From contig JAJZGI010000010.1 in the NCBI GenBank assembly GCA_021798575.1, positions 1 through 52,679 on the forward strand: a stretch of 52,679 bases of DNA, read 5' to 3'. Below are positions 29,198-33,313 of this stretch, piece after piece. Numbering within the stretch: position 1 is the first letter of the stretch; each line of letters starts with the position of its first letter. The translations under genes and the position numbers were made by a program. Origin of the DNA: Pseudomonadota bacterium. Lineage in GTDB: Bacteria > Pseudomonadota > Alphaproteobacteria > Acetobacterales > Acetobacteraceae. Under the pieces are notes generated by a model that was not told the DNA's origin, did no database searches, and was given only the letters and a program-made list of their open reading frames with translations.

Positions 29198-30409
29198 TCA
29201 GGCGGCCCGGGCGATCGAGAGTTCGTGCCAGATCGCCTGGAGCGCATCCACCAGATGCGCGATATCGGCGTCCGAGTGCAGCGGCGAGGGGGTGATGCGC
29301 AGTCGCTCCGTCCCGCGCGGGACGGTCGGGTAGTTGATCGGCTGCACATAGATGCCGAAACGGTCGAGCAGTTGGTCGGAGATGGATTTGCACTGCACCG
29401 GATCACCGACCAGAACCGGAACGATATGGCTGGGGTTGTTAAGATGCGGCACGTTGGCAGCGTCGAGTGCGGCGCGCAGCCGGGCGACGCGGTTGTGCAT
29501 ATGGTCGCGCTCCACACTGGAGGTTTTTAAATGCCGGATGGAGGCGAGCGCGCCGGCCGCGACCATCGGCGGCAGCGCGGTGGTGAAAATGAAGCCCGAG
29601 GCATAGGAGCGGATGAAGTCGCACAGGCCGACGGAGCCGGTGATATAGCCGCCGATGACGCCAAAACCCTTGGCCAGCGTGCCCTCGATCACGGTGAGCC
29701 GGTGGCTGAGCCCGTCGCGGTCCGAGAGACCGCCGCCGCGCGGCCCATACAGCCCGACGGCATGCACCTCGTCGAGATAGGTCATGGCAGAGAACTCGTC
29801 CGCGAGGTCGCAGATCTCGGCGATGGGCGCGACATCGCCATCCATGGAATAGACCGACTCGAAGGCGATCAGCTTGGGCCGCGCGGGGTCGATCGCCGCG
29901 AGCTTCGCGCGCAGGTCGGCGAGGTCGTTATGCGCGAACACCTGGCATTCGGCGCGGCTATGGCGGATACCCTCGATCATCGAGGCGTGGTTGCCGGTAT
30001 CCGAGAGCACGACGCAGCCCTTGAGCCTGGCCGCCAGCGTGCATAGCGTGGCCCAGTTGGACATATAGCCCGAGTTGAACAACAGGGCGGATTCCTTGTC
30101 GTGCAGGTCCGCCAGCTCGCGCTCCAGCAGCAGATGGTAATGGTTGGTGCCCGCGATGTTACGCGTACCGCCCGCACCGGCGCCGCACCGGTCGAGCGCC
30201 TCGTGCATCGCCTCCAGCACCTTCGGGTGCTGGCCCATGCCGAGATAGTCATTCGAGCACCAGACGGTGACATCGCGCTTGCCGCGCGCGGCGTGCTGGG
30301 TGGCGACCGGGAACGAGCCCGCCACCCGCTCGAGGTCCGCGAAGATGCGATAATTGCCCTCGCGGTGCAGGGTGTCGAGCTGGCTGCGGAAAAATGCTTC
30401 GTAATTCAT
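29198..30409 (-). CDS. hemA: 5-aminolevulinate synthase
   Basis: 403 residues. ALA synthase condenses glycine and succinyl-CoA, the first step of tetrapyrrole synthesis in alphaproteobacteria. The start [21 protein letters not shown], then [42 protein letters not shown] and [13 protein letters not shown] with the PLP Lys are all typical. hemA commonly ends the puh region of photosynthesis clusters. The gap from the PuhE-CobW gene is 31 bases. Confidence 0.97.
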
Positions 30410-30440: not shown

Positions 30441-32240
30441 TCAGGCGGCGAGTTTAACGGCGCAGGCGAGCAGGGCGGCGTGCAGTTCCCGCTCTTCGAT
30501 GTTGCGACCGATGACGACGGCGCGCGCGACCTCCCCTTTGGGCGCCGCGAAGGCGGTGAGGCTGGCGCGCCCGCCCGCGACGTCGAAATGCAGCCAGCCC
30601 GCGCCTGAGCGGGCGAGACCTTTCACGCGCTTGATATCCCCAAAAGCGCCATGGGTGATGGACTCCAGTACGGCGTGCAGCGCGTCGGCGTCGATACTGT
30701 GCTCCAGCTCGGTGTTCCAGGAGGTAAAGCCGAGTTCGGCGCCTGCATGGTCGTGCTGATGCTCATGGTGCTCATGGTGCTCATGGTGCTCATGGTGCTC
30801 ATGGTGCTCGTGTTCATGTTCATGCGCGCAGCTTTCGGTGCACACATGCGCGGCTTCGGGCGGCACCTCCACCAGTGCCAGCGTCTTCACCGGCTCGGCG
30901 TCGACCTGCCCGTAGCGCGCGGTGAGAATGTTCACAGCCGGGTTGAGGTGGCGCAGCGTCTCCGCCACCATCATCCGCACGCCGGGCGTGACCAGGTCCG
31001 CCTTGTTGATCACCAGCGTGGAGGCGAGCCGCGCCTGCGCGCCAAAATGCTTGGGCAGGCTGGCGTAGTCCGCCAGAAACGCCCCGGCATCGATGATCGT
31101 GGTCACCTTGAGCTCGCGCACGAAGGGAGCCAATGCCGGGCGCCGCATGACGCCGATGAGCGAGGCGATGTCCGCCACGCCGGAGGGCTCGATCAGCACC
31201 CGGTCGGGCGACCAGCGCGCCACCGTGTCCTGCAACTGGCGGGAAAGATCATCGCGCAATGAGCAGCAGATGCAACCGTTGGGCAGCTCGACGACATCCG
31301 CGCCCTGGTTGTCCAGCAGCGAGCCATCGATGCCGACACTGGAGAAATCATTCACCAAAACGACGGTCTTGCCGGATATCTTCTGGTCCACTGCTGCGAG
31401 GTCGGCCAGCCTGCGGCGCATATAGGTGGTCTTGCCTGCCCCCAGAAAACCCGCCGTGATCTCGACATCAAAAGCCTTGGCGGGCTTGCGCGAGGCGAGG
31501 CCCCATTGCCAGAGTTTTCCGGCGGGGAGCGGAATAACCAGAAACCAATGCTCGAGCACGGCGAGCGCCATCATCGTGCCGAGAAACGTATCGCCCGAGC
31601 GCGCAAACGCGGTTTTGGCGTCCACCGCATGGACCCACAACAATGTGGTAATGACCATGGAGACCGTGATGGAGACGGGAAAAAACAGATTCATCGGCTT
31701 GGATTTGAGGAAGCTCTTCAGGAAGGTGAGATGCTCGGGCAGAAACTCCTCATTGAGGTTGCGCACGCCAAAGAACACGTTGAGCTTGGCGCTCTGGTGC
31801 ATCCACCATAGCACCATGAAGGTCCACATGCCGATCTGGTTGGGCTGGTGCCAGGTGAGTGCCACGATCGCGACGGCCGAGCCGATGATGGCCAGCTCAT
31901 GATACAGGCTGGTCTGCACCGCGTGCACAAAATGCGCCCAGCCGCTGCAACCCTCCGGGCAGGGCTCGGAGCGCGGGCCGGTTACATAGCCCATATAGAA
32001 GGTGATCTCCTGCCAGCCCCAGGCGAACAGGCCGAAGAAAAATGCCTCATAGGCGGCGGTGAGGCTGGTCTGCCCGGCGGTGGCGTGCAGCCCGATCAGG
32101 CAACCCGCCAACACGGCGCTGGCGCACACCACGCTATAGATGAAGGTTTTTGCAGGCAAATTGTCCAGATAGATGATCGCCCCGGTGGAGAACCACCAGA
32201 CGAACAGGGAGAAGAGTGCCGGAAGGACGTAAGCGTGCAT
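30441..32240 (-). CDS. PuhE photosystem assembly protein fused to CobW/COG0523 metallochaperone GTPase
   Basis: 599 residues in one uninterrupted frame. Residues 1-250 are PuhE (DUF3623), with about seven hydrophobic helices and conserved W-rich stretches (LFAWGWQEITFYMGY, WWMHQSAKLNVFFG, AVLEHWFLVIPLP). PuhE is needed for full reaction-centre/LH1 assembly in Rhodobacter. From about 258 a complete CobW GTPase follows: Walker A GFLGAGKTT (264-272), GID, the metal-binding NGCICC (321-326), VLIEPSGVADIAS, the guanine motif NKAD (412-415), a His-rich loop at 473-498 and a C-terminal CobW domain. Free PuhE is about as long as the first part alone. COG0523 members deliver or handle metals, often zinc. 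The gene sits between acsF and hemA, exactly where puhE lies in other clusters. The GTPase would face the cytoplasm if the last helix ends near 240. Zinc delivery for BChl or the photosystem is inference. Confidence 0.93.
   Translation of the reverse strand: MHAYVLPALFSLFVWWFSTGAIIYLDNLPAKTFIYSVVCASAVLAGCLIGLHATAGQTSLTAAYEAFFFGLFAWGWQEITFYMGYVTGPRSEPCPEGCSGWAHFVHAVQTSLYHELAIIGSAVAIVALTWHQPNQIGMWTFMVLWWMHQSAKLNVFFGVRNLNEEFLPEHLTFLKSFLKSKPMNLFFPVSITVSMVITTLLWVHAVDAKTAFARSGDTFLGTMMALAVLEHWFLVIPLPAGKLWQWGLASRKPAKAFDVEITAGFLGAGKTTYMRRRLADLAAVDQKISGKTVVLVNDFSSVGIDGSLLDNQGADVVELPNGCICCSLRDDLSRQLQDTVARWSPDRVLIEPSGVADIASLIGVMRRPALAPFVRELKVTTIIDAGAFLADYASLPKHFGAQARLASTLVINKADLVTPGVRMMVAETLRHLNPAVNILTARYGQVDAEPVKTLALVEVPPEAAHVCTESCAHEHEHEHHEHHEHHEHHEHHEHQHDHAGAELGFTSWNTELEHSIDADALHAVLESITHGAFGDIKRVKGLARSGAGWLHFDVAGGRASLTAFAAPKGEVARAVVIGRNIEERELHAALLACAVKLAA
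30761..30814. repeat. 9-bp tandem repeat coding the His-rich loop
   Basis: Five perfect copies of GCTCATGGT (30761-30805) and a degenerate sixth (30806-30814). On the - strand they encode repeated His-Glu-His triplets in the CobW domain. Such in-frame repeats can gain or lose units by slippage without breaking the frame. Confidence 0.8.
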
Positions 32241-32257: not shown

Positions 32258-33313
32258 TTACCAGCTTGGGGCGAGACGGATGTCGGCGGGCAGCGCGTGG
32301 GCTTTGGGCGCCATGAGGAACAATCTGATGAAATGGAATCCCGCCCGCGCCTGCAAGCCGAGTTTTCGAACTTTATTGAAAATGCTTGGATTCTTTTGCA
32401 GCGCGCTGATCTTCTCGGCGATGATCCGCAGCCGCTCCAGCCCGGCGGCGAAGGCCGGGTTCTCGATATCGAGACTAACGGGAAACGTCTGCCGCGCGAT
32501 CTCGGTGGTGATGCGGAACACCTGGAAATCATATTCCGTCGGGTCCAGCCCGAGTGCCGCGTGGAACACCGGGCGGCCGTGGTCGCGCACATACATGGTG
32601 GCGAACACGGCGAGCAGGAAAAACCGGATCCACAGCCGGTTGAGCCCGGTCAGCATCCACGGGTTGGCGCGCATCAGCAGCGCGAAGGCCTCGCCATGGC
32701 GGAACTCGTCATTGCACCATTCGCGAAACCATTTGAAGATCGGGTGGATGCGCAATTCGGGATGCCGCTCCAGCTGCCGGTAGATGGAGATATAGCGCGC
32801 GTAGCCGATCTTCTCGGAGAGATACGTCGCGTAGAAAATGAACTTCGGCTGGAAGAAATGATACTTCTTGGCGCGCGTCAAAAACCCGAGGTCGACCTTC
32901 ATGTCGAAGTCGCGCAGCGCGTCGTTGATAAACCCGGCGTGGCGCGCCTCATCGCGGCTCATATAGCCAAACAGCGCCTTGAGGTCCGGGTTCTGGACCC
33001 GTTTCTTGATCTCGGCATAGAGCACGCAGCCGGAGAATTCGGCGGTGACGGAGGAGACCAGAAAATCCAGCAATTCGGCCCGCAGATCATCGGGCAGCCG
33101 GCCGAGATCGACATCGAATTCCGCCGTCCGGACGAAATGCCCCTTGTTCGGGTCGGCCTTGAACTCGGCCAGCAGGGCGTCCCATTTGTCGCGCAGGCAG
33201 GAGACGTCGATCTTCTCCAGCGCGGCGAAATCAGTCGTGTAGAAGCGCGGGCTGAGCACCGTATTGGTTTGTGCCAGCCTGGTCTGTTCGTTGGGGGCGG
33301 GCAGATCGCTCAT
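32258..33313 (-). CDS. acsF: Aerobic Mg-protoporphyrin IX monomethyl ester cyclase
   Basis: 351 residues. AcsF forms the fifth ring of chlorophyll with molecular oxygen. Di-iron ligands are seen: Glu in [16 protein letters not shown], the E-x-x-H in [13 protein letters not shown], and Glu and E-x-x-H in [18 protein letters not shown]. The start [15 protein letters not shown] is typical. Having the oxygen-dependent enzyme, with no radical cyclase bchE in the window, fits an aerobic phototroph. It lies 4 bases after orf94 and 17 bases before puhE-cobW. Confidence 0.96.

Follow-up and report, generated by a model that had tools for sequence, protein, structure and literature searches.

Why would a bacterium join a protein of photosystem assembly to a GTPase of a metal-handling family? 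The question is raised by one gene in contig JAJZGI010000010.1 (assembly GCA_021798575.1), a stretch of 52,679 nucleotides that we call the window.

A PuhE-COG0523 fusion

The gene encodes a single chain of 599 residues with PuhE first, then a COG0523 GTPase, and then CobW_C (Table 1). All of the domains exceed curated cut-offs. The Pfam scores are 350.8 bits for DUF3623 (cut-off of 27), 131.4 bits for cobW (cut-off of 20.7), and 39.4 bits for CobW_C (cut-off of 22), and the PuhE family TIGR03055 matches with 314.8 bits (cut-off of 164.05). Thus, a preliminary description of the locus was right that one unbroken frame holds a full PuhE and a full COG0523 GTPase. We also located every motif that it listed: Walker A, the CxCC motif, NKAD, a histidine-rich loop, and a C-terminal domain. 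The last predicted helix of PuhE spans residues 211-235, and no methionine occurs from there to Walker A, which makes independent initiation of the GTPase improbable.

The first half of the protein resembles PuhE (TIGR03055, DUF3623) of purple bacteria: it is the same gene in the same place after acsF, and it passes the curated cut-offs. It has seven predicted helices, and the available text of PMC12423673 also gives seven transmembrane helices for PuhE and states that DUF3623 does not share the TmAT acyltransferase fold. Two things set the fusion apart from the usual PuhE, which ends after about 260-290 residues: it runs on into the GTPase and CobW_C, and it has, in the PuhE half, a set of cysteine and histidine residues (C98, H103, H106, and H148) that we consider below.

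The second half has Walker A, GCxCC, NKxD, a histidine-rich loop, and CobW_C, like the COG0523 G3E GTPases YjiA, YeiR, ZNG1, and CobW, but it is joined to a seven-helix membrane protein. It scores below the NCBIfam cut-offs for CobW (TIGR02475, 105.5 vs. 332.1 bits), for the zinc chaperone ZigA (NF038288, 88.5 vs. 600 bits), and for PRK11537 (58.6 vs. 361). The host genome encodes exactly two proteins of the cobW family, and the second is a true CobW (515.5 bits, with a cut-off of 332.1). These scores do not support the idea that the fusion is the host's CobW for cobalamin synthesis. By predicted fold, the GTPase matched YjiA, HypB, UreG, and IcmF. IcmF is soluble and serves a cobalamin enzyme; its match (4xc6) had a Z score of 14.1 over 180 residues, with an rmsd of 3.1 Å. 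A fold search with the PuhE half by itself gave no match in the PDB with E under 0.001 (best Z of 5.7).

Table 1. Features of the fusion gene and its neighbors (positions in the window)
Feature	Position	Strand	Basis
hemA (5-aminolevulinate synthase), directly downstream	29198..30409	minus	TIGR01821, 662.7 bits
puhE-COG0523 fusion gene	30441..32240	minus	599 codons + stop, ATG start
CobW_C domain, residues 504-592	30465..30731	minus	Pfam
His-rich loop, residues about 470-497	30750..30833	minus	sequence
COG0523 (cobW) GTPase domain, residues 260-437	30930..31463	minus	Pfam and fold matches
NKAD guanine-specificity motif, residues 412-415	30996..31007	minus	motif in sequence
IEPSG (G3E ExxG motif), residues 350-354	31179..31193	minus	motif in sequence
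CICC (CxCC metal motif), residues 323-326 (GCICC, 322-326)	31263..31274	minus	motif in sequence
Walker A GFLGAGKT, residues 264-271	31428..31451	minus	motif in sequence
PuhE (DUF3623) domain, residues 3-252	31485..32234	minus	Pfam; seven predicted transmembrane helices
H148 in helix 5, proposed metal site	31797..31799	minus	alignment
H106, proposed metal site	31923..31925	minus	alignment
H103, proposed metal site	31932..31934	minus	alignment
CPEGC, residues 94-98 (C94 and C98 of proposed metal site), loop between helices 3 and 4	31947..31961	minus	alignment
acsF, directly upstream	32258..33313	minus	TIGR02029, 485.4 bits

As the preliminary description had it, the fusion lies in the usual place of puhE, with acsF and hemA adjoining it on the same strand. 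Just 17 bases separate the end of acsF from the start codon of the fusion, and 31 bases separate its stop codon from the start of hemA; all three genes are on the minus strand. The host genome (2.37 Mb, 96% complete) is Acidocella-like and not from Acidiphilium. Fourteen genomes of the host's genus (g1) are in our sample of its family; four of them have PuhE, and all four are fusions. Phototrophic Acidocella were reported previously (PMC10715153), and a search of the available text of that report found no mention of zinc, CobW, or PuhE. The claim that the host has a complete Mg chelatase also holds: BchH and BchI exceed their cut-offs, and BchD is above the cut-off of one model (574.3 vs. 571) and below that of another (404.6 vs. 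499.55).

Overall, the fusion is a new joining of a known PuhE to a known COG0523 protein, with a candidate client site. Among the open-licence papers listed in a literature search, none contained both CobW and PuhE, and earlier notice elsewhere is possible; a text search of a survey of COG0523 (PMC2770081) found no mention of fusions, photosynthesis, or puhE.

Distribution and ancestry of the fusion

An assembly error is ruled out, as the fusion is present in many genomes, including those of named isolates of Acidiphilium rubrum, Lichenicoccus, Fulvimarina, Jiella, and Aurantimonas. We aligned 41 non-redundant fusion proteins. When we scanned the contigs of named genomes, the best 80 loci included 20 fusions (one of them cut); these are from Acidiphilium rubrum ATCC 35905, Lichenicoccus roseus, Fulvimarina pelagi, three further isolates of Fulvimarina or Aurantimonas, and four Jiella, among others.

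Our genome sets for the family, the class, and the phylum are samples of these larger groups. In the host's family (f1), DUF3623 was found in 122 of 397 genomes: 28 have fusions (two of these are truncated downstream of Walker A by the end of their contig, and one at its 5' end), 14 have PuhE joined to CobW_C without a GTPase, and 80 have PuhE alone, although many of these 80 are classed so solely because the open frame is too short for a fusion. In the class, DUF3623 was above the cut-off in 27 of 385 genomes, with three fusions, one of them in the window genome and the others in G056 and G514. In the phylum, 31 of 398 genomes have DUF3623, again with three fusions (one of the 31 was not read). 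A separate sample, of the family of G1149, had DUF3623 in 20 of 151 genomes; seven are fusions, and in three of these, PuhE is identical to that of a Fulvimarina or Jiella already in our set. Among plasmid records, 1430 had a match, and none of these matches covers 80% of the fusion protein.

Two of the fusion loci are unusual. Genome G053 has two fusion genes (on G053:C86 and G053:C107), and one of them (L037) is on an 8.7 kb contig on which acsF, puhA, and hemA were not found. Locus L045 (CAIPTD010000011.1) is from a metagenome-assembled genome titled "uncultured Ferrovum sp.," which has the fusion and a PufL with histidine at L168; its PuhE groups among the Acetobacteraceae, which implies either a transfer or an error in binning or naming.

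We built a tree of 145 PuhE domains, with the five candidate ligand columns left out. All 44 fusion rows (41 of them non-redundant) fall within a single supported clade of 53 rows. The other nine rows of this clade are PuhE-only: eight have every one of the candidate ligands, and one has Arg148. The rows from Fulvimarina, Jiella, and Aurantimonas nest among the Acetobacteraceae, inside the fusion clade, which suggests that these bacteria acquired the fusion by transfer from Acetobacteraceae.

In a tree of the GTPase domains, a branch with a support of only 80 separates the fusions from the rest, and they are not nested among 25 stand-alone proteins from Alphaproteobacteria. The best stand-alone matches to the fusion's GTPase in 40 genomes have an E value of 5e-34, with 34% identity. 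Of 37 fusion rows, 34 retain both Walker A and GCxCC. CxCC and most of the histidine-rich loop are gone from three fusions (L026/L047 of G076, L029 of G258, and L188 of G019), in which Walker A and NKxD remain.

A candidate metal site in the PuhE half

Four residues of the PuhE half (C98, H103, H106, and H148), along with C94, are invariant in all 41 fusions. In the 92 rows outside the fusion clade, C98 is present in 17%, H103 in 10%, H106 in 12%, H148 in 0%, and C94 in 60%; position 148 is arginine or asparagine in all 92. More broadly, nine positions are invariant (the same in 40 or 41 of the 41 fusions) yet rare outside the clade, and four of these nine are cysteine or histidine, compared to 8 of 250 positions with a cysteine or histidine consensus (hypergeometric P of 5e-5, for a test that was chosen after seeing the data).

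The mean number of lysines and arginines is 1.69, 2.08, and 3.78 in loops 1, 3, and 5 of PuhE vs. 0.28, 0.23, and 0.10 in loops 2, 4, and 6, so the CPEGC loop and the C-terminus are predicted to be on the inner (cytoplasmic) side. All five residues are then predicted to be on or near the cytoplasmic side, which is also the side of the GTPase. A first AlphaFold model of the fusion had a pTM of 0.49, with low confidence for the loop that contains C94; residues 84-92 of this predicted structure have pLDDT under 50.

The link between the fusion and the ligands has little statistical independence, as all of the fusions belong to one clade. H148 changed once on a tree of 104 rows, and there are only two independent pairs on supported branches, so no significant association between fusion and ligands can be demonstrated. 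Also, the five residues persist in the three fusions that lack CxCC and in the eight PuhE of the clade that have no GTPase at all, so the candidate site can exist without a fused GTPase. Outside the clade, 7 of 92 rows combine the two cysteines and two histidines (CCHH) with Arg148.

Some of the GTPase-less proteins have histidines of their own. L305, L311, and L312 have C94, C98, H103, H106, and H148 and a short histidine-rich tail (for example, HEHTKHQHTH); their relative L310 has no such tail. Across PuhE proteins without a GTPase, histidine and cysteine account for 34 of 544 tail residues in the 16 proteins with CCHH vs. 54 of 2032 in the other 71, which is a weak difference (P of 0.016, ignoring kinship).

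Proposed loading of PuhE by its own chaperone

Which metal might the GTPase carry? According to the available text of PMC7895991, CxCC proteins of the COG0523 type prefer zinc or cobalt: cobalt-binding CobW has an extra conserved pair of cysteines before CxCC, while YeiR and YjiA lack this pair and prefer zinc. Of the 34 fusions that retain Walker A and GCxCC, none has a cysteine in that segment; the host's own CobW has NCGLENC there. Judged from these motifs alone, zinc would be the likeliest cargo.

The sequences themselves establish the domain make-up of the fusion, its motifs and distribution, its place in the tree, and the ligand set. As an explanation, we tentatively favor a PuhE with its own zinc-type COG0523 metallochaperone, which would load it in cis and make PuhE dependent on metal and GTP; we would give this somewhat less than an even chance of being correct. 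The fused GTPase, with Mg-GTP bound, would take up Zn(II) at CxCC, and the histidine-rich loop would collect zinc. The first client would be the attached PuhE, whose Cys2His2(+His) site would then receive zinc from CxCC. Loading with zinc would switch PuhE, as a modulator of bacteriochlorophyll production and of photosystem assembly, to an active or an inactive state. The assembly of the photosystem would thereby follow the supply of metal and GTP. In this scheme, we infer the identity of the metal, its transfer, and its effect on PuhE. Going by the title of a 2005 study by Aklujkar, puhE of Rhodobacter capsulatus is reportedly a putative negative modulator of bacteriochlorophyll production.

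There are precedents for parts of this scheme. In IcmF, a MeaB-type G3E chaperone is covalently joined to its target, isobutyryl-CoA mutase (PMC9164220, available portion); unlike in IcmF, the GTPase of the fusion is joined to a membrane protein and probably carries a bare metal ion. For yeast Zng1, transfer of zinc from CxCC to a client has been predicted (PMC10642216, available portion). The suggestion in the preliminary description that GTP-linked metal handling is tied to a membrane protein of photosystem assembly is the natural reading of a fusion that is real.

A possible sensor without metal transfer

The nearest rival is that the fused GTPase is purely a sensor and transfers no metal. 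Some proteins do retain part of the fusion's architecture without CxCC. As mentioned above, 14 genomes of the family encode PuhE joined straight to CobW_C (loci L198, L187, L199, L236, L241, L243, L245, L248, L196, L230, L197, L231, L238, and L191), and all 14 have histidine at L168 of PufL. That CobW_C is kept on PuhE in these proteins implies that this domain is useful without metal delivery. Similarly, the three fusions that lost CxCC keep Walker A and NKxD, and the reported role of puhE as a putative negative modulator would suit a sensor as well. However, a sensor leaves the cysteines and histidines that mark the fusion clade unexplained, and we did not find a regulatory motif in the fusion. 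We consider a pure sensor to be rather unlikely, if still a serious contender.

The PuhE halves of the 14 PuhE-CobW_C proteins lie outside the fusion clade in the tree of 145 rows. C98, H103, H106, and H148 are each present in 0 of 14, C94 is present in 5 of 14, and arginine is at both 103 and 148 in all 14. A profile of the fusions' CobW_C matches all 14 proteins with 47.5-91.4 bits; its best score among 60 stand-alone proteins from Firmicutes was 47.0 bits, and none of the 25 stand-alone proteins from Alphaproteobacteria was among the 60 matches listed. A tree of CobW_C did not resolve the branching order; these proteins may stem from a shared origin followed by loss or from a separate joining.

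Zinc bacteriochlorophyll

The preliminary description proposed that the fusion might be the missing factor for zinc bacteriochlorophyll: it would deliver Zn(II) for this pigment or would swap Mg for Zn at the membrane. As far as the available text of these papers goes, the route of zinc insertion into bacteriochlorophyll is uncertain and Acidisphaera makes zinc bacteriochlorophyll conditionally (PMC12654162), and zinc has been proposed to enter at a late stage, after Mg is removed (PMC4944227).

As a mark of zinc pigment in the reaction center, we considered glutamate at L168 of PufL. We could read this position in 134 genomes, comprising 116 of the 122 PuhE-bearing genomes of the family and 18 others. 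(For the remaining six, G207, G018, G294, and G326 had no match, and G245 and G231 were not included.) L168 is glutamate in 12 genomes, all of the Acidiphilium or Acidocella type, and histidine in 122. The window genome is among the 12: its PufL, which is encoded outside the window (locus L142, G000:C2:10605-11321), has NFEYNPAH. Acidiphilium rubrum (L157), the three other PuhE-bearing genomes of g1, and G023 also have glutamate. By this residue, the phototrophic Acidocella with Glu-L168 are predicted to use zinc bacteriochlorophyll. One genome, G043, has two different PufL genes (on G043:C3 and G043:C45; loci L164 and L167).

All 12 genomes with Glu-L168 have the fusion, with CxCC intact and 15 to 33 histidines counted in the loop region, and this much of the proposal stands. 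However, 25 of the 122 genomes with His-L168 have the fusion too: 16 from the family, eight that are named Fulvimarina, Jiella, or Aurantimonas, and the one titled Ferrovum. If His-L168 is taken as a proxy for Mg pigment (an imperfect one, given the conditional zinc pigment of Acidisphaera), this largely amounts to the wide presence among phototrophs with Mg bacteriochlorophyll that the preliminary description had named as grounds for giving up its idea. So, the fusion is not restricted to bacteria with the mark of zinc pigment, and a specific tie to them is not supported. The rows with Glu-L168 form one supported clade that is nested within the fusion clade, which indicates that the fusion came first. 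Under the loading scheme above, zinc pigment in Acidiphilium would then not be what the fusion arose for. With Glu-L168 on just one clade, statistics on independent events are not possible.

One other residue follows the pigment mark. Cys47, in helix 2 of PuhE (32100-32102 in the window), is present in 11 of 11 fusions with Glu-L168 and in 0 of 23 with His-L168. This would fit a zinc-pigment factor; yet two other positions show the same pattern, and it is perhaps no more than a mark of the clade. On balance, we view a dedicated factor for zinc pigment as improbable. A combination is a longer shot still: PuhE might be a zinc protein with a GTP-driven loader that was turned, in Acidiphilium and phototrophic Acidocella, to inserting zinc into bacteriochlorophyll at the membrane, with the Glu-L168 reaction center evolving afterwards to make use of this pigment.

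A possible supplier for neighboring enzymes, or a passenger

The fusion might instead supply metal to the product of a nearby gene, either iron for the di-iron enzyme AcsF, as the preliminary description suggested as an alternative, or as metal control at the Mg chelatase. In all but two (L037 and L045) of the 20 named fusion loci, acsF is the gene immediately upstream, and the related protein CobW provides cobalt to a chelatase that is akin to BchH. (This cobalt chelatase and BchH belong to one family; models of CobN match the host's BchH below the cut-off.) However, acsF is also directly upstream in all 33 of the GTPase-less loci that we examined, so AcsF can do without the fusion, and the case for it is weakened. 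The preference of CxCC proteins for zinc or cobalt also argues against iron. We consider this explanation very doubtful.

It is similarly hard to credit that the GTPase was once useful and is now a decaying passenger without a general role: CxCC has disappeared from three fusions, some rows of the fusion clade are PuhE-only, and the tail of one PuhE-only protein (G103) resembles a remnant of CobW_C, but nearly all fusions across a deep clade have Walker A and GCxCC intact, and the fusion has been kept in the Fulvimarina/Jiella/Aurantimonas group, which is nested among the Acetobacteraceae.

Implications

PuhE is a conserved protein of photosystem assembly without a known mechanism. A metal-dependent PuhE that in one lineage is loaded by its own chaperone, as the fusion and the candidate ligands suggest, would be the first testable idea of what it does. 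And with the fused GTPase domain, the question of how zinc bacteriochlorophyll is made becomes simply testable.
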